Shown piece by piece: positions 6,152 to 37,716 of a stretch of DNA of 41,690 nucleotides. This DNA comes from Deltaproteobacteria bacterium. GTDB lineage: Bacteria; Desulfobacterota; Desulfobacteria; Desulfobacterales; SpSt-501. Below the pieces are notes generated by a model. That model ran no database searches. It saw nothing but the letters and a program-made list of their open reading frames with translations, and had not been told where the DNA came from. Positions within the stretch are counted from its first letter, which is position 1; each line of letters opens with the position of its first letter. The stretch covers positions 1 through 41,690 of the forward strand of contig JACRCN010000064.1 of assembly GCA_016219005.1 (NCBI GenBank), read 5' to 3'. The position numbers were made by a program, and so were the translations under genes.

Positions 6152-6871
6152 TTACTTTTGGCTTCGAGCCGCTATGACTTTTTCCAGGACGGCTGATGCA
6201 TTATCCGCTTCTTTTTTTCCGACTTTCAATTCGAGCACTGATATCAAGCTCCTCATCTGTGCCAGGGTCAACCCTACATTAAACCCCACGTTGAAATGGC
6301 CTTGGAGTTGGGGATTGACGCCGGCCATGCTGGCCAAGGCTGAAATGGTTGCTATCTCTCTGCTCTGGAAATCCAGGTTGTCGCGTCCGAAGATATCCCC
6401 GAATAGGTGCCCTTTCAAAAACTTGTCAATGGCGGGAGCGAAAGCAATATACTTTCCGGTGGCCGGCGCCCCTATCAGCCTTGTCTGAATTTCCGTTCCG
6501 AGATCGATGATGCTTTTGTTGGCAGGCATAGGGCTTGGTTCTTTGCCAAGCTCGTCCTTGATGCCTTTCTGCTCCCGTTCTTCCATGACGCCTATGAAGG
6601 TGTTGATACCGTTCAGACTCCGTGGAAAGCCGGCGTAGGCATACAACTGCACGAGAATTTCCTTGATCTCGTTGACCGTGAGCCCGGCCTCCAGGCCTTC
6701 ATTCAGGGCTGTTTTCAGTTTTTCCTGGTCGCCATTGGCCGTAAAAGCCGAAATGGCAACGATGCCCTGTTGTTTGGGGCTTAACGCTTGAGTATTCACC
6801 GTCTGTGCCTCAGCAATGGTTACAATGCTCAGCATCAAGGCAAGTGTAACTGCCAGAATCGTTGTGTTCAT
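6152..6871 (-). CDS. secreted two-domain carboxymuconolactone decarboxylase-family protein
   Basis: The protein has 239 residues. A signal peptide (MNTTILAVTLALMLSIVTIAEA) precedes two copies of the alpha-helical CMD fold, roughly residues 30-105 and 145-232. The first carries GLTVNEIKEILVQLYAYAGFPRS, the second IATISALASMAGVNPQL; only parts of these are quoted as landmarks. CMD proteins include true decarboxylases and AhpD-like peroxidases, but no CxxC pair is visible, so AhpD-type peroxidase activity is unlikely. The start at 6871 follows AAGGAG. It is the last gene of the minus-strand operon and starts 11 bases after the cupin stop. CMD plus cupin is a common pair in aromatic or quinone metabolism clusters. 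Exact role unknown. Confidence 0.82.
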   Translation of the reverse strand: MNTTILAVTLALMLSIVTIAEAQTVNTQALSPKQQGIVAISAFTANGDQEKLKTALNEGLEAGLTVNEIKEILVQLYAYAGFPRSLNGINTFIGVMEEREQKGIKDELGKEPSPMPANKSIIDLGTEIQTRLIGAPATGKYIAFAPAIDKFLKGHLFGDIFGRDNLDFQSREIATISALASMAGVNPQLQGHFNVGFNVGLTLAQMRSLISVLELKVGKKEADNASAVLEKVIAARSQK

Positions 6872-6882
6872 GATCAACTCCT

Positions 6883-7377
6883 TCATTTGCCGTTGTATTG
6901 TTCGTCACTGACCTTTTCCATCCATTCAACGTTTTTGCCATCAAGTGTTCCCGTGATGGCGATATGAGTCATGGCGGTGGTGGGGGAGGCTCCGTGCCAA
7001 TGCTTTACCCCTGGCGGACACCAGATCACGTCGCCCGCCTTGATCTCATCGACCTTGCCTTCCCATTCCCCGGTTCGGCCGACACCGGCCGTGACGAGCA
7101 GGTGCTGCCCTTTCGGGTGAATATGCCATGCAGACCTGGCGCCGGGCTCGAAGGTGACATAGGCGCTGGAAAAGGGTGCCGAATCATTTGCTGGAAACAG
7201 GGGGTCGACACGCACATTCCCGGTAAAATACTCGGCAGGCCCTTTGACGGAAAGCTGAGAGCCGGCCCGTGAGATTGTTTGCGATTTTTTAATTGCCTCG
7301 GCGGCAACTGCCTGGCTTTCAAAAGTGCCTGTTGATAAGAGCAAAGAGATCGAAAAAAGCATTGCTGTGAATTTCAT
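6883..7377 (-). CDS. secreted cupin-domain protein
   Basis: This 164-residue protein has a cleavable signal peptide (MKFTAMLFSISLLLSTGTFESQAVAA), then a single small beta-barrel cupin. Metal-binding-type residues appear in WHIHPKGQHLLV, around residues 83-94, and a later HWHG supplies further histidines. GDVIWCPPGVKHWHG is the second cupin motif. The family contains isomerases, oxygenases and binding proteins, so chemistry cannot be assigned. The ribosome binding site is GAGGGGATGAAAA-ATG. It lies 80 bases after the aldo/keto reductase and directly before the CMD gene. Both have signal peptides, so they probably work together in the periplasm. Confidence 0.85.
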   Translation of the reverse strand: MKFTAMLFSISLLLSTGTFESQAVAAEAIKKSQTISRAGSQLSVKGPAEYFTGNVRVDPLFPANDSAPFSSAYVTFEPGARSAWHIHPKGQHLLVTAGVGRTGEWEGKVDEIKAGDVIWCPPGVKHWHGASPTTAMTHIAITGTLDGKNVEWMEKVSDEQYNGK

Positions 7378-7457
7378 TTTTCATCCCCTCTATACAATGA
7401 TTGTGGCAGTGGATAACTCTCAGTTCTTTTTGCCCCTTTTCTTTTCATGACAGTTGC

Positions 7458-9528
<2,071 letters not shown>

Positions 9529-9553
9529 GGATTTATCCTCCTATAATTAGCGT

Positions 9554-10648
9554 TCAGTTCAAGCCTTTTTTTTCTACAAATTTGGACATCAGGTCAGCTA
9601 TTTCGAGATTGTTCAGGTCCGAGAATGGAAAGTGTGTGTTGCCGCGAATGCCTATCTCGGGCAGATGCACTACGGTGACATCACCGCCGCGTGCGTTCAG
9701 TGCGTCCCTCCATAGCCTTGCCATCTCCAGGCGCACACGCCATTGGTCTTGGCCGGGGTTTGTCGAAGGTTGCTCTGGAATATAATCCCCGTAATAGATG
9801 ACAATCGGAATCTTGGTGAGCTTCATGAAATCGGATAAAGGTACGCCAACCGCCTCAAGCGTACCCCCGGAACTATGCATCGGAGAAGGCACTTCATCTT
9901 CCAGGAAAATGAAACCACTTCCAGGTTCATAGGAGACGACGGCTCGCACATTCGTGCTTTTAATCACAGTGCGCCAGCCCATGCCTCCGCTGTGCGAATG
10001 GGTGACAAGGATGCCTGGCCCAATCTTTTTGAATAGTGCAGCAACGGCGTCTGAGTTAACGTCGATATCGATAGGACCCGTGTCAGGCGTCATCTGACGA
10101 AAGTATTGCTCCAGAGCGTCCGGGTTATGAGAGAATTGCACGCCAGGAAAGAAGTTCGGCCAGATTCCGATGCGAAAAATGTTGAACCATCTTTGTTCAT
10201 CGGGCACAGGCGTCAAAGTGCTCGGTTGGGTGCTGCGTCCAGCATTGCCACGACGAGGCTGGTCAACCAAGTAGACCCCGAAGCCCCGGCGCAGGAAGAT
10301 GTTCTGATAACCCTCGCGTCCATCCGGTGTTGTTTCCCACGTCTTCGAGAACTGCCCGTAGCCATGCCAGAGCACGAGAGGTAATTTGCGAGCGTTCGCA
10401 GGAATCTGGTAAAACACATAGGCGTGATCGCCGTGGAACGTTTGTCCTTCAGGGGACATTTTGACAGGATCGAACGTGCCGGGGCTCGTGACCACCGTTC
10501 CGCCGACGGCAAAACTGCCTTGCTCCTGGATAATTAGCGACCCCAGTTTGCCTTTTACCGTGGCCGTTGAGCACGCTGCCACCATAAAGAAAACGGCAAG
10601 CATGAGCGTGACGAATGTTTTTTGGTATATCATCTTCATTAAGTTCAT
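9554..10648 (-). CDS. lipoprotein alpha/beta hydrolase
   Basis: This 364-residue protein has a lipoprotein signal with lipobox VAAC (lipidated Cys26), so it should be membrane-anchored outside the cytoplasm. An alpha/beta hydrolase fold follows. LVLWHGYGQ near residues 91-99 gives the oxyanion region, VTHSHSGG near 215-222 holds the probable nucleophile Ser220, and GNTHFPF near the C-terminus supplies the probable catalytic histidine. An ester or lactone is a reasonable substrate class, but nothing fixes it. AAGGAG stands seven bases before the start at 10648. The gene sits between the AOR and the alcohol dehydrogenase and may feed a released alcohol or acid to them. Confidence 0.8.
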   Translation of the reverse strand: MNLMKMIYQKTFVTLMLAVFFMVAACSTATVKGKLGSLIIQEQGSFAVGGTVVTSPGTFDPVKMSPEGQTFHGDHAYVFYQIPANARKLPLVLWHGYGQFSKTWETTPDGREGYQNIFLRRGFGVYLVDQPRRGNAGRSTQPSTLTPVPDEQRWFNIFRIGIWPNFFPGVQFSHNPDALEQYFRQMTPDTGPIDIDVNSDAVAALFKKIGPGILVTHSHSGGMGWRTVIKSTNVRAVVSYEPGSGFIFLEDEVPSPMHSSGGTLEAVGVPLSDFMKLTKIPIVIYYGDYIPEQPSTNPGQDQWRVRLEMARLWRDALNARGGDVTVVHLPEIGIRGNTHFPFSDLNNLEIADLMSKFVEKKGLN

Positions 10649-10702
10649 TAAGCAACTCCTTGAGAACGCTTCATTACTAAATAACGAGGAAACGGCCTGG
10701 CA

Positions 10703-12505
10703 TTAGATAGAATCCAGGCTGAGTTCTTTTATCCTTGATTCCCCAGGCTTCGTGGTTTCAGTGTCCCATCCACGATCTTTGTAGTACTGGGTTAGCATGA
10801 CATTGAATTGGTCCCGGTTGAGCACTGAGCCCTTCTTCGGGCCGACTGTGAAAGCATCTTCGAAAAAGCGGTCTGGAAGCCAGTCATCTTCACGGCGGAA
10901 CCCCTCGCGATAATTAAAGAGCTTTTCCAGGTTGAAAACCCTTTCGCCGGTTTTCATGAACTCTGTTTTGTCGTACTCGCGGCCGGTTATCGCGCGGAGC
11001 AGGTCCAGTGTCGGCTCATTCAGCGCCGTTTCGATGGCGGCGAAATAGCACAGGCCCGTTGAATCCTGCATGGCCCGTGTGTTCTGTATGGCCGCGTCAT
11101 TTCCGTTCAGGTGGCACGCCCCCCTGTTTGCGGTTATGTAACAAAGCGCTCTGGGCGGGTTTGCCTGGATATTGTGCGCGGCCAGTTCATGCCCCTTCAC
11201 GTGGATGGCAAACTTCTCACTGCCCTGTCCGATCTGCCGGGAAAGGGCCTTCACACCTTTGGAGGCGAGATCCCCCACACCGTTCCGGAGAGCGATCTTA
11301 TCGATCATCGCAAGAGTTGCATCGACACTTCCCCATTGAAGATCGATCCCATCCAGAAATTTCTGGTCGATCATCCCTTTCTCATAGGCTTCCATAAGAA
11401 ATCCTATGACGTTTCCGGTCGAAATTGAATCTATGCCAAGATCGTCGACGTTGTAGTTCGCTTTCAGCATCCCGGCCATATCGGATATCAGAAGGTTTGA
11501 GCCCAGCATCGTGCCGCCTTCATACTCAGGGCCGTCATGGACGATGCCTCCGTAATTGCCCCGTGTCAGCCCGCTCTTTTTGCAGGCCAGCGGGCAGCAG
11601 TAGCAGGCAACGTTTCTTACCCAAACATCGCGCTTTGCAGCATCGCCGCCGATTTTGTCGGCCTCCGGAAATGTTCCCTCGCGATAATTCCGGACAGCCT
11701 CGAGCCCAGCATTACTGAGGTGGACAATGCCCCTTGCAGTCCCCTGCTCCACCATCGCCTTTGTGTGAGGCGAGTTCTTGAGGACCAGTCTGGCGTTTTT
11801 CAAGGCAGCAAGAAACCTCTTGTGGTCGGCAACGCCCGGCTGTCCGGACCCCCGCACCGCGATCGCTTTCAAGTTCTTCGAACCCATTACACAACCAACG
11901 CCACCCCGGCCTGCTGCCCGCGCCGAGGTATGAAGTATGCTGGCATACCGGACGAGATTTTCCCCAGCCGGTCCAATGTAGATCATCTTGAATCTCCGGT
12001 CCCCAAGTTCCTGCAGGATTGCTCTGTCAAAGGAATCCGTGCGCATGCCTCGGAACTTTTTGGCATCGCGAATTTCCACCTTGCCGTCGTCGATAGTGAC
12101 GTAGCAGAGATCGTTGGCCTTTCCTGAAATCAGGATTCCGTCATAACCTGCAAACCGGATTTCGGGGCCAAAGAATCCGCCCACGTTCGAGTAGGAAACG
12201 GTTGAGGCGCAGGGGTAATCGGATCTTACCGGCGATGTCATGGGTGATTTTGTAACCACGCAGGTCCTGGAAGCGGCCGGGACAGGAAGGCCGGAAAATG
12301 GCCCGGGCATAAAGATAAGCGGGTTATCAGGAGATAGCGGGTCAACGCCTGGCTTTTTCAGGCGGTCCCAAAGGATTTTCATTCCGAGACCCCGCCCGCC
12401 GACGAATTGGTCGAGGTCTTTGGGTTTGAGGGCCACCTTTTCAATCTTTCCGCTCGATAGGTCGATATCCAGTATTGCGCCGTAGTATCCTGGTTTCCCG
12501 CTCAT
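10703..12505 (-). CDS. aldehyde:ferredoxin oxidoreductase family enzyme (W/Mo pterin)
   Basis: A 600-residue AOR-family enzyme, which typically oxidises aldehydes to acids or runs in reverse using a tungstopterin and a 4Fe-4S cluster. The N-terminal domain is clear: GGRGLG near residue 37, PGPFSGLPVP near 68, then a TSARAAGRGGVG landmark. The cluster ligands are CYCCPLAC (C-x2-C-x3-C) in the middle and a late cysteine in STGLCYF. It has no signal peptide. AGGAGG precedes the start, and the first four bases overlap the ferredoxin gene's end, implying translational coupling. The AOR-plus-ferredoxin pairing resembles BamB/BamC and YdhV/YdhY of known systems. Metal and substrate cannot be told. 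Confidence 0.9.
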   Translation of the reverse strand: MSGKPGYYGAILDIDLSSGKIEKVALKPKDLDQFVGGRGLGMKILWDRLKKPGVDPLSPDNPLIFMPGPFSGLPVPAASRTCVVTKSPMTSPVRSDYPCASTVSYSNVGGFFGPEIRFAGYDGILISGKANDLCYVTIDDGKVEIRDAKKFRGMRTDSFDRAILQELGDRRFKMIYIGPAGENLVRYASILHTSARAAGRGGVGCVMGSKNLKAIAVRGSGQPGVADHKRFLAALKNARLVLKNSPHTKAMVEQGTARGIVHLSNAGLEAVRNYREGTFPEADKIGGDAAKRDVWVRNVACYCCPLACKKSGLTRGNYGGIVHDGPEYEGGTMLGSNLLISDMAGMLKANYNVDDLGIDSISTGNVIGFLMEAYEKGMIDQKFLDGIDLQWGSVDATLAMIDKIALRNGVGDLASKGVKALSRQIGQGSEKFAIHVKGHELAAHNIQANPPRALCYITANRGACHLNGNDAAIQNTRAMQDSTGLCYFAAIETALNEPTLDLLRAITGREYDKTEFMKTGERVFNLEKLFNYREGFRREDDWLPDRFFEDAFTVGPKKGSVLNRDQFNVMLTQYYKDRGWDTETTKPGESRIKELSLDSI

Positions 12506-13242
12506 TTTAAACCTCCTAAATCAGCTGTTCCGTACCAATTCTTGGCAAGCTCAGCAGCGATCTTCTCAGGTGCAAGGCCGTAGTATTTCCGGTCGGGCTT
12601 TACCTCGGCATATGAGAGCGCCTCGAAGGGGCACCATTTGACGCATTGTGGATCACCGCTGCAAAGCGTGCAGATGCCCTCAGGCCTTTCCGTTGCAGGA
12701 TCGATGCTGATTACACCGATTCTTTGCGCAGCACAGGCTTCGGCACAGCTCCAGCAACCGATGCACCGGCCGGCATCGTTGTGTACGGTGTGAGTCGTTT
12801 CATCGCGATAGAGGGCGCGTCTGCCGGTTTTGGGGTCTGGCTCGACCGGGCACGCATTTACGCAGGGGGTATCGGCACACATTGCACACACATTCGGGAT
12901 ATCCACCTCGGGGTTGTAGCTTGCGACCCGAATGTTTGAATAGCGCGGATTCCCGAGTCCGGGCAGCTTCTCTCCCCCGATTGTCACAGGCCGGTTGTGC
13001 GACGAACAGACCGCTTCACAAGTCCGACATCCGGTGCATTTGCCGTAATCGACAAGAACCATCTTAAGGACAGGATTTCTCGAATCGGCCAGTACCGCCG
13101 CATGGATTCCAAATTGGCCAAACAAGACCAGCGCGCCTCCCCCTATCCCGACGCTTTTAATGAATTCTCGCCGGCTAAGGTTTGCCCGTTCATTAGAGCC
13201 GGTCTTTTCCTTTTTCATCCTATCCATGATCGCCTTTGTCAT
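12502..13242 (-). CDS. Tat-signal polyferredoxin, electron partner of the AOR
   Basis: A 246-residue protein opening with a twin-arginine signal (SRREFIKSVG, arginines 24-25) and then four cysteine groups, each fitting a 4Fe-4S cluster: CTGCRTCEAVC, CAMCADTPCVNACP, CIGCWSCAEAC and CTLCSGDPQCVKWCP. This is the HybA/DmsB/YdhY-like arrangement of electron-transfer subunits. I start at 13242, after AAGGAG eight bases away; an in-frame ATG at 13278 lacks a comparable site. It overlaps the AOR gene by four bases. The partner AOR has no signal, so either the ferredoxin carries it through Tat or the signal acts only as a membrane anchor; the sequence cannot decide. Confidence 0.88.
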   Translation of the reverse strand: MTKAIMDRMKKEKTGSNERANLSRREFIKSVGIGGGALVLFGQFGIHAAVLADSRNPVLKMVLVDYGKCTGCRTCEAVCSSHNRPVTIGGEKLPGLGNPRYSNIRVASYNPEVDIPNVCAMCADTPCVNACPVEPDPKTGRRALYRDETTHTVHNDAGRCIGCWSCAEACAAQRIGVISIDPATERPEGICTLCSGDPQCVKWCPFEALSYAEVKPDRKYYGLAPEKIAAELAKNWYGTADLGGLK

Positions 13243-13283
13243 GTGTTCCTCTCCTTGAATGGGTGCCGCTGTAGGCATAAGCG

Positions 13284-14960
13284 CTAATCAAAGAGTCCCC
13301 CGCCCGTGCGCTGGACCGCCAGCATTGTCACGTCGTCGTAGCGGGGGGCCACGTCGATGAAGCTGAAGACGGAGGATTTGACCCGCTCGATCAGTTCCCC
13401 GGCCGAGGCGAAGGGCTGAGTGATAATCGCCTTCAGGCGGGATCGCGTGAACAGTTCGTCCACCGGCGAGCGGGCATCGGTGACTCCATCGGTGTAGCCG
13501 ACCAAAATATCCCCTTGCTCGAGCTGAACCCGGCCGACGCGGTAATCCGAATCCGGGAACATCCCAACGGCGGGGCCTGTGGGTTCGATAACGCTTTTGA
13601 TTCCGGAGCTGTTTTTGACGTACAGCGGCTCGTGGCCGGCATTGATGTATTGCATGGTTCCGCTCTGGGGATCGAGAATGCCAAAGAACAGGGTGGCAAA
13701 CATGGCTTCCCGATCATGGTTGCGGGCGATGTAATTGTTGGTGAGCGATACGGCCTTCAACCCTCTGGGGGGATCGATGATTTCCCCACGCGCACCGGCT
13801 TTGGAGTCGGACCCGATCCCGATGGAAGCCTGCTGGGCAAACACCCGGATCAGACTGCGGAAGAGCGCCATATAAAGCGCCGAGCCGACCCCTTTGTCGC
13901 ATACATCGGCGATCACCAGCCCGATAGAACCGTCGGGCAGCTCGAACGCGTCGTAGAAGTCTCCGGAAACCCGTCCGGCAGGGTAAAAGCAGGCGGCGAT
14001 CTCCCAATTCCTAAGCTGTGGCAGCTGCTGCGGCAGGAACTCCTGCTGGATCGCCCGGCCTTTCTCCATTTCGAACTCGATCAGTTTGACACGCTGCCAT
14101 TCCCTCAACCCGTCGATCATGGTGTTGAAGCTCTGGGCAAGAGAGCCGACCTCGTCGGCAGAAACTATCGAGGCTTTTTGGCTGAGATCCCCGCGCGCCA
14201 CGGCTGAAGCCAGTTCGGAGATTTCTTCAATAGGGCGGGAGATCCGTCGCGCGAAATAGTACCCCACAAACCGCGCAATGAGCAAAGCAACGACTAGAAA
14301 ACAACTGAATGAGACTATTTGGCGGTGAATCACACCGCCAAGCCCCTCACGGAACGCCGTCAGCCGGACAACGTATTGGTTGACATCGTGTCTGCCGGTG
14401 ATGTCGACAAACATCGAAAAGGTGTCTTCGCTGCAAAACAGAGCGGGTATTGCGCTGGAGACGAACTCTTCCTCCCCGCCCGCCTCGGCCTTGAAGTGGC
14501 CTGTCAGGGCGCGCACGAGTTTCGAGAACTCATGGAACTTCAGTTTTGCAAGAGAATCATCGGACGACTCTCTTTTCCGCAGCGTACCGAACTCGTCAAG
14601 ATAGAGGAGATACCATGGGCCGTTTTCGGTCGATCTGGTGTAGAGAGCGATATCGGACACCGAATAGAAGATGGCGGAAAAATTGGCGAGCGTCCGGGTG
14701 AGGTCGGTGAGCCCGGGAAGCGGGCCGTCGACGCTGTGCCAGATGAAATCCGGCTTGGAGATTCCCTCGATCTGCATGACCTGGTTTCGGATCAGCTGCG
14801 CGGTGACCCTGGTGAAGTGCTTTTCCGAGGACCTGATGTACAGAAGCGCGGTGGCTGTAAAGACCACCAGACCGAATAAGATAAAATAGACGGTGATGCG
14901 TCGGGCGAGAGATGGCTGCCGGAGTTTGCAGTGGCGGCGCAGATACTCGATGGGTTTCAT
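13284..14960 (-). CDS. membrane PP2C phosphatase: sensor, HAMP, SpoIIE (RsbU type)
   Basis: A 558-residue signalling protein. A first membrane helix lies near residues 22-44, an extracytoplasmic sensor region runs to about 210, a second helix to about 235, then a HAMP linker (FARRISRPIEEISELASAVA as landmark) and a SpoIIE/PP2C serine phosphatase from about 300 to the end. Phosphatase metal motifs are visible: GRVSGDFYDAF, VIADVCDKGVG, INAGHEPLY and GYTDGVTDA. RsbU-type enzymes dephosphorylate anti-anti-sigma factors; none is encoded here. I start at 14960 (ATG) with AGGGG upstream, though a GTG at 14966 is possible. It stands 41 bases before the ferredoxin start, so it heads the redox operon. 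Confidence 0.87.
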   Translation of the reverse strand: MKPIEYLRRHCKLRQPSLARRITVYFILFGLVVFTATALLYIRSSEKHFTRVTAQLIRNQVMQIEGISKPDFIWHSVDGPLPGLTDLTRTLANFSAIFYSVSDIALYTRSTENGPWYLLYLDEFGTLRKRESSDDSLAKLKFHEFSKLVRALTGHFKAEAGGEEEFVSSAIPALFCSEDTFSMFVDITGRHDVNQYVVRLTAFREGLGGVIHRQIVSFSCFLVVALLIARFVGYYFARRISRPIEEISELASAVARGDLSQKASIVSADEVGSLAQSFNTMIDGLREWQRVKLIEFEMEKGRAIQQEFLPQQLPQLRNWEIAACFYPAGRVSGDFYDAFELPDGSIGLVIADVCDKGVGSALYMALFRSLIRVFAQQASIGIGSDSKAGARGEIIDPPRGLKAVSLTNNYIARNHDREAMFATLFFGILDPQSGTMQYINAGHEPLYVKNSSGIKSVIEPTGPAVGMFPDSDYRVGRVQLEQGDILVGYTDGVTDARSPVDELFTRSRLKAIITQPFASAGELIERVKSSVFSFIDVAPRYDDVTMLAVQRTGGGLFD

Positions 14961-15157
14961 ATTCACAACCCCTTTGGTTTTGGTAGACTCTTGCCTACCG
15001 ATTTTAAGTGTTAGCTTGGTTCATGGTTACCTTATAAATCAGGATAAATGATGACAGGTAGACCAATTCTGCTTATTTCTTGCCTAATCGTCCGGGATTA
15101 GATAAACGGACTGTACCGGGATTCTGGAACCTGATTGTTGGGAAAGGGGGGCTACCT
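14961..15157. promoter_or_regulatory. divergent regulatory region between redox operon and AraC gene
   Basis: These 197 bases separate two outward-facing transcription units and must hold both promoters. A GGTAG/CTACC inverted repeat lies at 14982-14986 and 14995-14999, and GGTAGAC recurs at 15057-15063. TATAAA at about 15033 could be a -10 for the AraC side, but I find no convincing -35. These are candidate binding sites for the adjacent AraC protein. Confidence 0.35.
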
Positions 15158-31178: not shown

Positions 31179-31664
31179 ATGATGCCACGGCAAATCGTTT
31201 TCGCAAGGTGCATGATCTGCTTTTTAAGCATCGCCTTCCTGGCGCTGCCGGCGCTGCCGGCCATGGCGGCCGGCAATACCGCGGTCAAATCCCAGAAAGC
31301 CGCAGCCGGTCCGGAGTCGAGGGATGCCGAGACCTGGTTCCGCAAGGGTGCCCTCGTTGCCACCTATGGCAACAATAAAGCGGCCGTCGGCTATTTTACG
31401 AAGGCCATCGCGTTGGACCCCAACCACGGCGGCGCCTGGTTCTCGCGGGGCGTCTCCTACGGCCAGCTCGGCCTTTACCCCCAGGGGATCGAGAGCATCA
31501 ACCGGGCCATTGCCATGGAGCCTCAAAACGGGCTTTATTATTACGGCAGGGCCAGGGTGATCCTGCTGTCCGGCGACCGGGAAAAGGCCCGGGAGGATTT
31601 CCGCCGAGCCGCCGACCTGGGGGACGAAGACGCGCAGAGGTACCTGAAGAAAAATCCGAAGTAG
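31179..31664 (+). CDS. secreted TPR-repeat protein
   Basis: A 161-residue periplasmic protein. The signal peptide MMPRQIVFARCMICFLSIAFLAL..PAMAA precedes about three tetratricopeptide repeats (AETWFRKGALVATYGNNKAA, AWFSRGVSYGQLGLYPQG, LYYYGRARVILLSGDREKAR as landmarks). Such repeats form a protein-binding scaffold; there is no catalytic domain. ATG at 31179 and 31182 are both possible. AAAAGGGG stands upstream. It ends eight bases from the converging hybrid-kinase gene. Confidence 0.8.
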   Translation: MMPRQIVFARCMICFLSIAFLALPALPAMAAGNTAVKSQKAAAGPESRDAETWFRKGALVATYGNNKAAVGYFTKAIALDPNHGGAWFSRGVSYGQLGLYPQGIESINRAIAMEPQNGLYYYGRARVILLSGDREKAREDFRRAADLGDEDAQRYLKKNPK

Positions 31665-31672
31665 AAGCCTTT

Positions 31673-34636
31673 TTACGCCACAATCACTGCCTGGGATCGC
31701 TTCCCGTCGATCTTGATGGTGAGCGGCTTGGCCAGCCGGATGTGCCTGAGATAGGTGGTGGCTGTTTCCGTGCGTTGCGCCAGCAGCCAGTCCCAGTCGA
31801 TGAAATCCGTCCCGTTGCCCGCGGTGGTCAGGTAGCTGATGTCCAGGGACGTGATGTTGTGAAAGAAGTGCGATCCCTGGGACGGGTCGGCTCGGAGGGC
31901 CTCGGTGGTTGTCTCCACCATGGCTTTGACCCCGGAAATGTCGGTCCACTTCACCGGGATGCCGAGCCAGCGGTCGGCCGAGCCCCAGCGGCCGGGACCG
32001 ATTAGCAGGTACCTGCGCTTCTGAGCCTCGAGTAGCTTGTTGATTCGCCCCACCTCCGCTGCAATGTCGATCGTGCGCGCCGCATTGAAGGTGTCCGGGC
32101 TGACGAAGACGATGTCCGCGATGTCGTTGACCTCCCCGTTGCCCAGGGCCATCGTGGAGTAGCAGAAGGCCCGTTTGATGTCCTCCGACAAGATCTTGAT
32201 CTCCAGCTTCTGCCGGGCCACGGCCATCGGGCGGATCTGCAGCAGGTCGAGATAGGGTTTCCGTCCGGCTTCCAGGTTGACCGCGAACTCGATCTCCACC
32301 GGGCACCCCATGCCCCTGCGGCCGATCTCCAGGATGTCTGCAAGGATCTCGGGCAGCGGAAATGCCTGGTATTTAAGTATGTTGGCGAAGGTGACGACCG
32401 GGAAGCCGCCGCTCTGGGCTCCGTCGCGGATGCGGTGCTCCTGGGGGTAGTAGGTGCTCGAGATCGCCTGCACGCATGCGTTGTCGTGGAAGTCGTCGAC
32501 GGCCAGCCGCGCCAGCGTGGGGTCTTCGCCGATGCTCAAGTTTTCCGGGAAATCGGTCAGCTTCAGCGCATAGAGGAAGCGTTGGGCGTTCTTCAGGATG
32601 TCGTCCACGGTGGAGAACTGGGGCAGAAACTGGGGGTACTTCGGCGAGAAGCGCAGCGAGGCACCGCCCCCCACCACGGTTTTGCCGAGGCCGAGCGCGA
32701 TGTGAGCGATGCCGTCCTCCGGCTTCATGTAGCCGATCGGGTAGAAGTTATAGGACTGAACCACCCCCGCCAGGGTTGGGTAGAAGTAGTCGCCGCAGGC
32801 CGCGCCGGTCAGGTGCTGGATGACCACCGCCATTTTTTCCTCCTCGATGCGGTGGTAGGTGCTCCGGGCGAAGGCTTTGGGGCTTTCGAAATAGGTCGAG
32901 GCATAGACCAGCTTGACGGCGGTGATCAGCCGCGCCAGGCGCACGGCGGGGTCGGGGTGGTTGTTGGGGAGCATGATCGTGCGGTAGATCCCGGCAAACG
33001 GCTGGAACTGAGCATCCTCGAGCAGGCTCGACGAGCGCACGGCCAGCGGGCAGGCCGTGTGCTCCATGAAGACCGACAGGCTCTGGGTGAGCCAGTCCGG
33101 GAAGCGGGCGGCCATGCAGGCGTCGGCGATCTCTGCGTCGCCGGCCTCGCGCGTGGCGAATTCGGCAAGGCGGTTTTCGCCGATGAAGGCGTCGAAGCCT
33201 TCCGTGGAGACGGCGACGGTTTTGGGGATGCGGATGTCCACGTCCTTGTACCGGGCTTGAATCTCCGGGTGCTGCTTGAGCAGGGTTGAAATGAATGCCA
33301 GGCCCCGGGCCTTCCCGCCCAGGGAGCCGCGGCCGATTTTGATGAAATCCGCGTCCGGGTCGAAACCGCCCGTGGTCATTTCGGTGATGATGCCCTTCTG
33401 CCGTCCCATGCGGCGCTCGGCGATGCATTGCACCAGGTGGGCTTTCAGGGCCTCGGTGCTCGGGAAGTCGCTGACCTTCAACGGCTTCAGTTTCGAGGCC
33501 AGCATGACCTCGGAGCGGGCCATGAACCAGCTGGAGAAGTGGTTGCGCCGGGCGTGGTGCTCCACACACTCGTCCGGGAGGGTGGGCAGCAATTTTTCCA
33601 TGGCGCGCAGGTTCGAGGCGCGGGCGATTTCGCGGCCGTCGTCCGGGTGGCGGAAGACGAAGTCTCCGAAGCCGAGGTACTGCATGAAGAAGTCATGGAT
33701 CTCGGCGTTCAGGGTCGGAGAATTCTTGTTGACGAAGACCGCCGGGATGTGGCGAGCCCTTTCGCGGTTGGCTTCCTCCGAACTCAGGTTGAGCAGCGGC
33801 AGGTCCGGGTTCTCCGAGCGGATTGTCTCGAGCAGGGAAAAGCCCGCTTTTTCGTCCGCCACGCCGTTGCGCGGGAAGCGCACGTCGCAGAGCACGCCCA
33901 GGAGATAAGGCTGGTAGCGCCGGTAGAGTTCCATGGCCTCTTCGTAGGATTCCGCCACCAGGACCTTCGGCCGGGCGCGCATACGGAAGATGCGGTGCTC
34001 GTCGTTGACCGACTCCTCCATGGCGGCCTGGGTCTGGGTGACGATCACCTTGTAGAGAATGGGCAGGAGCGCCGAGTAGTGGACGGGCGAGTCCTCCACC
34101 ACGATGATGACCCGCACCTTGGCCCGTTCGGTGTCGTAGGCCACGTTCATGCGGTCCTCGAGGTTCTTGATGAGGGCCAGCAGAAGGTCGGAATTGCCCT
34201 GCCACACGTAGACGCGGTCAATGGACTGGCGGTCGAAGGCTTTGTGGTCGAGTACGTGCTGCCCCGTCTTGTGCACCAGGAGGAATACCGGCAGCTCCGG
34301 GAAGTTGTCCTTGATCGTGCGGCCCAGCACGTAGGCGTCCGTGTCGTCCACCAGCGGCATGGTGATCACGAGGTCGAACTTCTTGCGCCGCAGGGCGTCG
34401 AGCGCCTCGGCGGATGTAGACACCCAGGTGAGCATCGGCGGCCGGGAGAGGTTGAGGCCGCGGTACTCGTGGATGATACGCTCGGCGAGCCGGCCCTCCT
34501 CCTCCATGATAAAGGCCTCGTAGGGGCTGCTGACCAGCAGGATGTCGGTCACCTTGCGCGCCATTAGCTCGTGAAACACCTTGAAGGACAGGTCGAAGTC
34601 TTCGCGGCTGGCGATCAGCGGGAATGGGGCGGTCAT
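31673..34636 (-). CDS. receiver-domain / PEP-synthase N-domain hybrid protein
   Basis: A 987-residue cytosolic protein. Residues ~28-160 look like a receiver domain without a phosphoacceptor (FDLVITMPLVDD). Residues ~174-315 form a second receiver with all key residues: Glu181-Asp182, Asp251 in GVLCDVRFP, Ser285 and Lys304. A 110-residue spacer follows, then a PEP-synthase/PPDK N-terminal ATP-grasp domain (GRGSLGGKARGL near 436-445; CPLAVRSSSLLED near 529-541; PFAGIYRTIM). The phosphohistidine swivel and PEP-binding domains of true PEP synthase are absent. I infer an ATP-dependent transferase or ATP-binding switch controlled by phosphorylation. Substrate unknown. Confidence 0.85.
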   Translation of the reverse strand: MTAPFPLIASREDFDLSFKVFHELMARKVTDILLVSSPYEAFIMEEEGRLAERIIHEYRGLNLSRPPMLTWVSTSAEALDALRRKKFDLVITMPLVDDTDAYVLGRTIKDNFPELPVFLLVHKTGQHVLDHKAFDRQSIDRVYVWQGNSDLLLALIKNLEDRMNVAYDTERAKVRVIIVVEDSPVHYSALLPILYKVIVTQTQAAMEESVNDEHRIFRMRARPKVLVAESYEEAMELYRRYQPYLLGVLCDVRFPRNGVADEKAGFSLLETIRSENPDLPLLNLSSEEANRERARHIPAVFVNKNSPTLNAEIHDFFMQYLGFGDFVFRHPDDGREIARASNLRAMEKLLPTLPDECVEHHARRNHFSSWFMARSEVMLASKLKPLKVSDFPSTEALKAHLVQCIAERRMGRQKGIITEMTTGGFDPDADFIKIGRGSLGGKARGLAFISTLLKQHPEIQARYKDVDIRIPKTVAVSTEGFDAFIGENRLAEFATREAGDAEIADACMAARFPDWLTQSLSVFMEHTACPLAVRSSSLLEDAQFQPFAGIYRTIMLPNNHPDPAVRLARLITAVKLVYASTYFESPKAFARSTYHRIEEEKMAVVIQHLTGAACGDYFYPTLAGVVQSYNFYPIGYMKPEDGIAHIALGLGKTVVGGGASLRFSPKYPQFLPQFSTVDDILKNAQRFLYALKLTDFPENLSIGEDPTLARLAVDDFHDNACVQAISSTYYPQEHRIRDGAQSGGFPVVTFANILKYQAFPLPEILADILEIGRRGMGCPVEIEFAVNLEAGRKPYLDLLQIRPMAVARQKLEIKILSEDIKRAFCYSTMALGNGEVNDIADIVFVSPDTFNAARTIDIAAEVGRINKLLEAQKRRYLLIGPGRWGSADRWLGIPVKWTDISGVKAMVETTTEALRADPSQGSHFFHNITSLDISYLTTAGNGTDFIDWDWLLAQRTETATTYLRHIRLAKPLTIKIDGKRSQAVIVA

Positions 34637-34681: not shown

Positions 34682-34710
34682 ACTATAGAGGTGTGTTCGC
34701 GGAATTTCAA
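34682..34710 (-). promoter_or_regulatory. sigma-70 promoter of the hybrid-protein gene
   Basis: On the minus strand, TTGAAA (34705-34710) and TATAGT (34682-34687) are 17 bases apart. Transcription would start near 34675, about 40 bases before the ATG at 34636, which has GGAG eight bases upstream. Confidence 0.6.
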
Positions 34711-34732: not shown

Positions 34733-35650
34733 CTATTCCGGGCCGACCCGCTTTCCCTGCCAGGAATCCCGCCGCTCCAGTTCGGCCCGGATCATGTTCA
34801 GCGTTCCGGCCTTGTCGCGGCACCAGGCCGGCGCCGCCCACTCCCCCGGGTGAGGGTCGCCGGTGAGGCGCTGCACGACGACGGCGGGGGGGAGGCGTTC
34901 GAGGAAGTCGCAGGCAAGCTCCGCATACTCCTGCTGCCCGAGGCAGCGGAATTCCCCGGCCTGGTGGAGCGCCTCCAGCCGGGTGCCCTTCACCACGTAG
35001 AGGGCGTGCAGCTTGACGCCGTCGATCCCGGCTGCGGAAAGGCGCCGGGCGGTGAAATGCATGTCCGCGCGGCTCTCGCCGGGCAGGCCCAGGATGACAT
35101 GCGCGCAGATTCTGACCCCGCGGTTCCGGGTGGCCGCCACCGCCCTGAAAAAGCAGGCGGCGTCGTGGCCGCGGTTGATGCGGGCCAGGGTGGCGTCGCG
35201 GGCGGACTGCAGGCCGTACTCGATCCAGATCAGCCGGTCGCGGGCGTAGCCCTCGAGCAGATCCAGCACCGGCGCCGGCACGCAGTCCGGGCGGGTTCCG
35301 ATGGCCAGTCCCACCACGTCTGCCACGGCAAGGGCCTCCTCGTAGAGGGCCTTGAGCCTTTCGACGGGCGCGTACGTGTTGGAGAACGCCTGGAAATAGG
35401 CAATGAACTTTTCGGCGCGGTAGCGGCGGGCCAGCGCTTTTTTGCCGGTGGTCAACTGCTCGGTGATCGAAAGCCCGCGGGCGTGGGCGCCGGTCCCCGA
35501 CCCCCGGGCATTGCAGTAAATGCACCCGCCCGTGGAAACGGACCCGTCCCGGTTCGGGCAGGTGAGGCCTGCGTCCACCGTGATCTTTTGAACGCGGCAG
35601 CCGAAAAGCCCGCGCAGGTAGGTGTTGTAGTCGTAATAGCGGTTCTGCAT
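34733..35650 (-). CDS. radical SAM protein, TIGR01212/YhcC family
   Basis: A 305-residue radical-SAM protein with the family's long cysteine spacing: Cys31, Cys43 and Cys46 (TCPNRDGSVSTGGCIYCNARG region), that is C-x11-C-x2-C. Landmarks YFQAFSNTYAP, LAIGTRPDCVP, WIEYGLQSARD and ILGLPGESRADM are those of YhcC. The YhcC group is widespread and of unsettled function. I start at ATG 35650; a GTG at 35665 would put the mnmG promoter's -35 inside the coding region. The gene is divergent from mnmG. Confidence 0.85.
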   Translation of the reverse strand: MQNRYYDYNTYLRGLFGCRVQKITVDAGLTCPNRDGSVSTGGCIYCNARGSGTGAHARGLSITEQLTTGKKALARRYRAEKFIAYFQAFSNTYAPVERLKALYEEALAVADVVGLAIGTRPDCVPAPVLDLLEGYARDRLIWIEYGLQSARDATLARINRGHDAACFFRAVAATRNRGVRICAHVILGLPGESRADMHFTARRLSAAGIDGVKLHALYVVKGTRLEALHQAGEFRCLGQQEYAELACDFLERLPPAVVVQRLTGDPHPGEWAAPAWCRDKAGTLNMIRAELERRDSWQGKRVGPE

Positions 35651-35656
35651 GGCGGC

Positions 35657-35685
35657 TTGACCCACTCAACCGGGCCCGGTATAAT
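35657..35685 (+). promoter_or_regulatory. near-consensus promoter of mnmG inside an inverted repeat
   Basis: TTGACC (35657-35662), 17 bases, TATAAT (35680-35685). A perfect 13-bp inverted repeat (ACTCAACCGGGCC at 35664-35676, GGCCCGGTTGAGT at 35688-35700) spans the spacer and -10 region. The -10 lies in the repeat's loop. The left arm starts 14 bases before the divergent YhcC-type gene's ATG. An operator reading is natural; no regulator gene is near. Confidence 0.65.

Positions 35686-35844: not shown

Positions 35845-37716
<1,872 letters not shown>

Follow-up and report, generated by a model that had tools for sequence, protein, structure and literature searches.

A widespread protein family with a tandem-receiver head and a PPDK-type ATP-grasp domain, often encoded beside glutamate dehydrogenase: a candidate phosphohistidine regulatory kinase

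The family gene and its product

The stretch of DNA analysed here (the window; 41,690 nucleotides, positions 1 to 41,690 of contig JACRCN010000064.1 of a Deltaproteobacteria bacterium) carries on its reverse strand a gene for a protein of 987 amino acids. The protein consists of two receiver domains, a helical linker, an ATP-grasp domain of the type found in pyruvate phosphate dikinase (PPDK) and phosphoenolpyruvate (PEP) synthase, and a C-terminal domain that is predicted to fold like a phosphohistidine swivel. Across the family to which it belongs, the gene is often found next to a gene for glutamate dehydrogenase (GDH). The features are as follows (rows refer to a 69-row family alignment described below).

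31673..34636, reverse strand: family gene, 987 aa, in the order receiver 1 (REC1), receiver 2 (REC2), helical linker, ATP-grasp domain, C-terminal swivel-like domain
34682..34710, reverse strand: promoter-like site TTGAAA-17-TATAGT directly upstream of the family gene (consensus match only)
34139..34552, reverse strand: receiver 1, residues 29-166, degenerate (fold match and alignment)
33659..34117, reverse strand: receiver 2, residues 174-326, complete
33884..33886, reverse strand: D251, phospho-acceptor position of receiver 2 (69/69 rows)
33725..33727, reverse strand: K304 of receiver 2 (69/69 rows)
33347..33658, reverse strand: helical linker, residues 327-430, with the invariant H361 (weak resemblance to DUF5752 and OrfY)
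32201..33346, reverse strand: ATP-grasp domain of the PPDK/PEP synthase type, residues 431-812 (PPDK_N)
31676..32200, reverse strand: C-terminal domain, residues 813-987, with the motifs GPGRWG and QGSHFF.N, no convincing Pfam match and a predicted phosphohistidine swivel fold
31868..31870, reverse strand: H923, candidate phospho-carrier, first residue of a predicted helix (923-930)

The open reading frame (ORF) starts with the ATG at 34636 and ends with a TAA stop. A GGAG about 7 nt upstream of the ATG is consistent with this start. Two promoter-like sites were found in 5 kb, compared with a mean of 0.7 in shuffled sequences, and the site at 34710-34682 is consistent with the same ATG. Homologues of this architecture were present in 42 of 58 sampled genomes of the same order (62 loci, the window's genome included), and at least 586 relatives were confirmed in a GTDB scan of named genomes. 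The ORF is therefore more than a chance reading frame; it is genuine and belongs to a large conserved family.

Distribution of the family and alignments

Two or three family loci were found in 16 of the 42 carrier genomes. The best 80 of the relatives from the GTDB scan were kept. According to title and tree label, these belonged to Thermodesulfobacteriota, Myxococcota, Bacteroidota, Ignavibacteriota, Chlorobiota, Calditrichota, Acidobacteriota, Gemmatimonadota, Planctomycetota, Thermoplasmatota and others. The family is widespread in bacteria and some archaea.

Conservation was read from an alignment of 69 rows chosen from 120 loci (A2) and from an alignment of 21 rows from loci found without motifs. 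The 80 named loci had been chosen by two motifs, one of them containing H923 and the other being the GGK motif of the ATP-grasp domain. The family tree comprised 105 rows, after the omission of eight duplicate or superseded loci, two rows below 850 aa and six variants with an alternative N-terminus. The alignment of the C-terminal domain held 67 of the 69 rows; the two omitted were L040, which has an insertion and is extended at the C-terminus, and L120, truncated by the end of its contig.

In six Bacteroidota and Chlorobiota loci, a second, longer copy (approximately 1150-1270 aa) lies directly upstream of the family gene (L110:4485-7943, L116:4530-7982, L083:4479-7934, L101, L114 and L119). 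The longer upstream copies keep the key residues, except for a Lys at the position of R802.

A role in anti-phage defence was rejected, as no PADLOC model matched the 987-aa protein at E up to 0.01. A viral origin was rejected as well: a search of IMG/VR with the window protein as query, which reaches close relatives only, confirmed no relative. The sole match of an Rfam scan was a tRNA. In the open-access literature, judged by title and the start of the abstract in partly narrow searches, no paper on this family or its GDH link was found.

Receiver head

The model of receiver 1 (residues 29-166) resembles the receiver of PmrA (Z 13.3 over 120 residues). The columns of its phospho-acceptor Asp and catalytic Lys, assigned by eye from the motif, are occupied by M93 and W145 in the window protein. 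An Asp was found at position 93 in none of the 69 rows; 47 rows had Met and the other 22 had Thr, Ser, Val, Leu, Ile, Phe or Ala. Position 145 was Trp in all 69 rows. Judged from these residues, receiver 1 is a pseudo-receiver, which keeps the receiver fold without the receiver chemistry.

Receiver 2 has the acidic pair, the Asp and the Lys that a receiver requires: E181 (68/69 rows), D182 (66/69), D251 (69/69) and K304 (69/69), together with S285 (68/69). Its Pfam match to Response_reg had an E-value of 4.2e-6, and the best stretch (215-294) scored 27.3 bits, below the cut-off of 30.2. Among solved receivers, the model of residues 175-323 was closest to ComE (Z 16.0, a root-mean-square deviation (rmsd) of 1.7 and 125 residues). 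Strands 1 and 2 are separated by two helices, a long one (184-206) and another at 212-219.

Pfam showed no histidine kinase in the 30 window ORFs that were scanned (the other window ORFs and the rest of the genome were not searched). A cognate kinase encoded nearby was rejected as the partner of the family protein, given this result for the 30 ORFs and the same-strand direct neighbours at the named loci, which are dominated by GDH.

Linker and ATP-grasp domain

The full-length AlphaFold2 model, built on the 69-row alignment, had a mean predicted local distance difference test (pLDDT) of 87.9 and a predicted template modelling score (pTM) of 0.82. In the linker of the window protein, a DUF5752 match (E 0.0087, window 33404-33562, approximately residues 359-411) was below the cut-off. 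The match was stronger in relatives (E 1.6e-5, and 4.2e-6 in the long copy of L116), which suggests that the linker could be DUF5752 in degenerate form. The family profile matched the linker to OrfY (PDB 4cso) with an E-value of 0.0012. A literature search for OrfY gave no result, and the resemblance to DUF5752 and OrfY yielded no function for the linker.

PPDK_N was matched over residues 438-812 with an E-value of 2.5e-32. The nucleotide-site residues K442, R534, E783, Q800 and R802, which we take to correspond to K22, R92, E323, Q335 and R337 of PPDK, were each present in all 69 rows. The best Foldseek match of the full model was rifampin phosphotransferase (RPH; E 4.7e-11). For the ATP-grasp part, the best PDB matches were RPH and HpeI by fold and RPH by the family profile, in which HpeI came fifth. 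PEP-utilizers_C, the PEP/pyruvate-binding barrel, gave no match at E up to 10, and just 175 residues follow PPDK_N. An ordinary PEP synthase was rejected, as there was neither a PEP barrel nor a match to PF00391.

An earlier note on this DNA had described a degenerate and a complete receiver in front of an ATP-grasp domain of the PEP synthase type that lacks the PEP-binding part, and these claims were borne out by the results above. Its numbering of D251 and K304 was correct, and the invariance of both residues leaves its claim of a complete second receiver standing. The two-component control that it suggested is possible; the 30 scanned ORFs offered no histidine kinase for it.

C-terminal domain

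The earlier note had also stated that the protein has no swivel domain, and this is probably wrong. The last 175 residues probably have a phosphohistidine swivel fold like that of the phosphohistidine domains of PPDK and RPH, according to the structural models.

When modelled alone (808-987), the C-terminal domain reached a pLDDT of 91.4 and a pTM of 0.90. In a structural ranking with this model, the 17 best rows were chains of the PPDK, RPH, pyruvate kinase and enzyme I type. The first six rows were PPDK 375-508 or RPH 755-865, with Z of 7.0-7.3 over 110-121 residues. The top row was the central domain of PPDK (375-508; Z 7.3, rmsd 3.3, 121 residues), and the His domain of RPH (755-865) had a Z of 7.2. 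Lower rows were the C-terminal domains of pyruvate kinase (Z 7.0 and 6.8), the isolated carrier domain of PPDK (6.7) and enzyme I (6.3-5.5). The C-terminal domain of pyruvate kinase is related to the swivel domain.

Whole-model alignments, whose ranges give the first and last residue only, extended from 419 to 987 for PEP synthase 2ols (359 residues, Z 26.4) and for PPDK 1dik (352 residues, Z 18.9). The alignment to RPH 5hv1 ended at 809, with 283 residues aligned, i.e. the ATP-grasp domain only. The larger counts for 2ols and 1dik suggest that part of the C-terminal domain was matched too.

The candidate phospho-carrier H923 was found in 69/69 rows of the large alignment and in 21/21 rows from the loci found without the motif filter. 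It was present in 11 of 12 tandem copies, and the twelfth ends before that position. Only two histidines were invariant in both alignments, H923 in the C-terminal domain and H361 in the linker. The swivel assignment is strengthened by the position of the domain after the ATP-grasp, by the 2ols and 1dik alignments reaching 987 and by H923 opening a helix.

Several results weigh against the assignment. The Z values of the swivel rows were all below 8, a range in which the tool cautions about common arrangements and which would be weak if taken alone. Rows within 1 Z count as ties: the enzyme I rows tie with the first unrelated row (LdcA, Z 5.6), and the pyruvate kinase row at Z 7.0 ties with the top swivel rows. 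Foldseek with the C-terminal model gave no match at E <= 0.001, and its top rows were other folds. None of the 67 C-terminal members matched PF00391 with an E-value of 10 or less (HMMER filters active). Profile alignments, trimmed stretches included, failed to place H923 on the catalytic His of the swivel, which is H455 in PPDK. The assignment is thus based on the predicted fold and the position in the chain.

Further sequence searches gave the same picture. Pfam matched nine scattered families on the 67 members, each in at most two members (best E 0.0071). With hhalign, the C-terminal profile aligned to the swivel segments of relatives in the last strand only and not significantly (E 0.06 with 11 segments, two of them false, and E 0.14 with 14 clean segments). 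When the profile was run against the PDB with hmmsearch, five matches appeared, all of them weak and unrelated (E 0.16 to 0.69). As the sequence proof failed, the assignment rests on the whole-model alignment, the C-terminal model and the structural ranking. A hidden His-swivel domain, which the earlier note had named as a finding that would speak against it, was probably found at the level of the fold, with an invariant His, and was not found at the level of sequence.

Linkage to glutamate dehydrogenase

Clustering of the neighbouring ORFs showed one dominant partner, GDH, with ELFV domains in three examples. GDH was found within 1.5 kb in 48 of the 80 named loci, on the same strand in 45 and both within 300 nt and on the same strand in 36. 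At locus L062 of Desulfocicer vacuolatum DSM 3385, for example, the distance to a same-strand GDH is 342 nt. It lay further off in five loci, and nine loci without GDH have a short flank. GDH ORFs made up 48 of 144 ORFs at positions +-1 vs 13 of 464 at positions +-2 to +-6. Among the same-strand neighbours at +-1, GDH was present in 38 loci, compared with 10 for a mixed cluster (receivers, kinases and tandem family copies). The tblastn search recovered some loci absent from the clustering, which accounts for the difference between the two sets of counts. Locus L105 dropped out during clustering. In the tree, loci linked to GDH (label entered by hand, covering GDH up to approximately 3 kb away) were present in both halves and in many phyla.

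In the same-order genomes, GDH was found within 2.5 kb of 19 of the 62 family loci (16 on the same strand). All 46 genomes carrying the family or its distant variant had GDH, vs 7 of the 12 non-carriers (Fisher p 1.7e-4, kinship among genomes ignored); presence was defined as E <= 0.001 to one GDH and includes cases of approximately 34% identity (G026, G036).

The distant variant comprises six PPDK_N proteins whose N-terminus differs from that of the family; all six share its GPGRWG and G-T-H-F motifs at the C-terminus. GDH lay within 2.5 kb in four of the six, in two on the same strand. In the three scanned N-termini, Pfam named nothing at E <= 0.001; they are KaiC-like only by eye.

Other genes of this metabolic node were also found as neighbours. 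In five loci, the upstream same-strand gene belonged to a cluster whose three Pfam-scanned members have a glutamate synthase domain, and a few other loci had 2-oxoacid:ferredoxin oxidoreductase-type genes upstream. A cytidylate-kinase-like gene (one member checked with Pfam) lay directly upstream on the opposite strand in four loci and second upstream in one (L103:6854-7786, L032, L085, L094 and L097).

GDH fragments were seen at contig edges (G000:C46:4-135; G004:C129:4-135, C27:4-135, C52:1-189 and C60:1-189). In two genomes of the genus, the breaks fall at matching residues, which suggests that several near-identical GDH copies broke the assembly.

Comparison with known systems

From sequence and models, the family appears to be of the ATP-grasp/swivel kinase kind, with an unusual receiver head. 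It shares with PEP synthase and PPDK a PPDK_N ATP-grasp followed by a swivel-like domain, with a structural match across model residues 419-987. It differs from them in that it has no PEP/pyruvate barrel, that Pfam does not recognise its swivel-like domain and that the ATP-grasp is preceded by two receivers and a helical linker. RPH, the best Foldseek match of the full model, likewise combines an ATP-grasp with a His swivel. RPH is described as having a rifampin-binding domain as well, and there is none in the family protein. The substrate domain that RPH has between ATP-grasp and His domain is absent, as the C-terminal domain starts directly at the end of PPDK_N (812).

The nearest experimental precedent that we encountered, by analogy, is VadK (Rv1127c). 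VadK is described as a shortened PPDK of approximately 50 kDa that autophosphorylates on His, was pulled down with methylcitrate-cycle enzymes and is proposed to regulate central metabolic enzymes through interaction (PMC13400623). Like the family protein, it has an ATP-grasp and a His domain and no PEP domain, although for the family protein the fold is the sole basis of the His domain assignment. VadK differs in acting on the methylcitrate cycle, and no receivers are described for it (PMC13400623).

HpeHI is described as a two-part small-molecule dikinase that acts on small phenols and is split in two proteins (PMC12167813). The structure of its ATP-grasp protein HpeI (9goj) was among the top matches of the family model; two separate proteins and small-phenol substrates set HpeHI apart from the family.

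PleD carries two receivers. Its chains appear among the Foldseek matches of the full model, and the output differs: an ATP-grasp/swivel unit in the family protein vs GGDEF in PleD.

Another PPDK-like protein near two-component genes is reported from Desulfovibrio: its gene, which has a recognised mobile domain, appears in a gene list together with a histidine kinase and an NtrX-like regulator linked to nitrate resistance (PMC4001038).

Proposed function and alternatives

As GDH is so often adjacent, the family protein is probably a regulator of glutamate metabolism and not itself a metabolic enzyme. On balance, we lean towards a receiver-gated regulatory kinase of the glutamate/2-oxoglutarate node that would pass phosphate from ATP to a histidine in the manner of VadK. 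As in PEP synthase or RPH, the swivel domain would be charged by ATP, here at H923. The phosphorylation state of D251 would gate the swivel, or alternatively receiver 2 would take the phosphate. The phospho-swivel would then dock on, or phosphorylate, an enzyme of the node, with GDH as the first candidate. The parts of this proposal that comparison backs are the architecture (a PPDK-type ATP-grasp, a diverged swivel-fold domain, a pseudo-receiver and a complete receiver, and no substrate barrel), the conservation and the gene linkage.

Other observations point away from such a kinase. No GDH was found among the scanned window ORFs, and none lies on the 20 kb around the second family copy in the window's genome (L021). 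Of the 80 named loci, 18 had flanks of at least 1.6 kb on both sides and no GDH on the locus. Seven of the 58 genomes had GDH without the family, in some cases one that shares 77-81% identity with the query (G031, G039). Since the 80 named loci were chosen by the H923 and GGK motifs, the invariance in the 69 rows results partly from selection; in the 21 rows found without motifs, K442, D251, K304 and H923 were all invariant. Many named loci are contigs of metagenome-assembled genomes, so phylum labels may be wrong for single loci.

The same residues could also serve a one-protein phosphorelay, in which phosphate would go from ATP to H923 on the swivel and from there to D251 in receiver 2 of the same protein, and phospho-receiver 2 would alter GDH binding. 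PPDK-type chemistry would here replace the histidine kinase of a two-component system. This would fit D251, K304 and H923 each being present in all 69 rows and being retained together in the 11 tandem copies that extend to H923, the lack of a histidine kinase among the 30 scanned window ORFs, and the joining of phospho-donor-type and phospho-acceptor-type domains in a protein without a substrate domain. However, an unlinked kinase or a small phosphodonor could serve the receiver, and swivel-to-Asp phosphoryl transfer is without precedent known to us. We consider such a relay unlikely, and equally so in an extended form that, across many bacterial phyla and in some archaea, would set the activity of GDH and of its neighbours among the glutamate/2-oxoglutarate enzymes.

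Still less probable is a small-molecule dikinase like RPH or HpeHI, in which H923 would phosphorylate a glutamate/2-oxoglutarate metabolite and the receivers would act as an on/off switch. The RPH and HpeI matches of the ATP-grasp part by fold and profile speak for it, and HpeHI is a precedent for two-part dikinases of this kind (PMC12167813). An acceptor-binding domain is absent, however, and the swivel-like domain directly follows the ATP-grasp and ends the protein. We give the lowest probability to a catalytically silent regulator, whose PPDK-like core would bind ATP as an energy sensor and act by docking to GDH or other partners only. Two points would suit a silent protein: the large sequence distance between the C-terminal domain and PF00391, and the existence of GarA, a GDH regulator that acts by binding. 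The ATP-grasp residues and H923 were present in 69/69 rows, which would be unusual for a dead enzyme.

GDH links carbon and nitrogen metabolism, and for anaerobes, among them sulfate reducers, Ignavibacteria and many Bacteroidota, we know of no account of its control. A large family that combines a receiver with an ATP-driven phospho-carrier unit and stays beside GDH across phyla is a direct and testable candidate for this control. If the proposed regulatory kinase is real, the recently described idea of a PPDK-derived regulatory kinase (VadK) would extend to many phyla. The GDH link is a new finding beyond the reach of the window sequence alone. What lasts is that a receiver-controlled kinase now has a concrete candidate target.

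Genomic context of the window copy

The neighbours of the family gene in the window are as follows.

34733..35665, reverse strand: radical SAM protein, upstream of and on the same strand as the family gene, a conserved neighbour in the window's clade
31179..31664, forward strand: tetratricopeptide repeat (TPR) protein, convergent and downstream, a conserved neighbour in close relatives

In the window's clade, the family gene lies behind the radical SAM gene, with mnmG (35845-37716 in the window) beyond it on the other strand. As the clade has this position instead of one beside GDH, the target of the window copy is less certain than that of the family. One locus (L039) joins both contexts, with the radical SAM gene, the family gene and GDH in a row.

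Elsewhere in the window, a run of reverse-strand genes (6152-14966) encodes a carboxymuconolactone decarboxylase family protein, a cupin, an aldo/keto reductase, a zinc alcohol dehydrogenase, an aldehyde:ferredoxin oxidoreductase, a ferredoxin-type protein and a HAMP-SpoIIE phosphatase.

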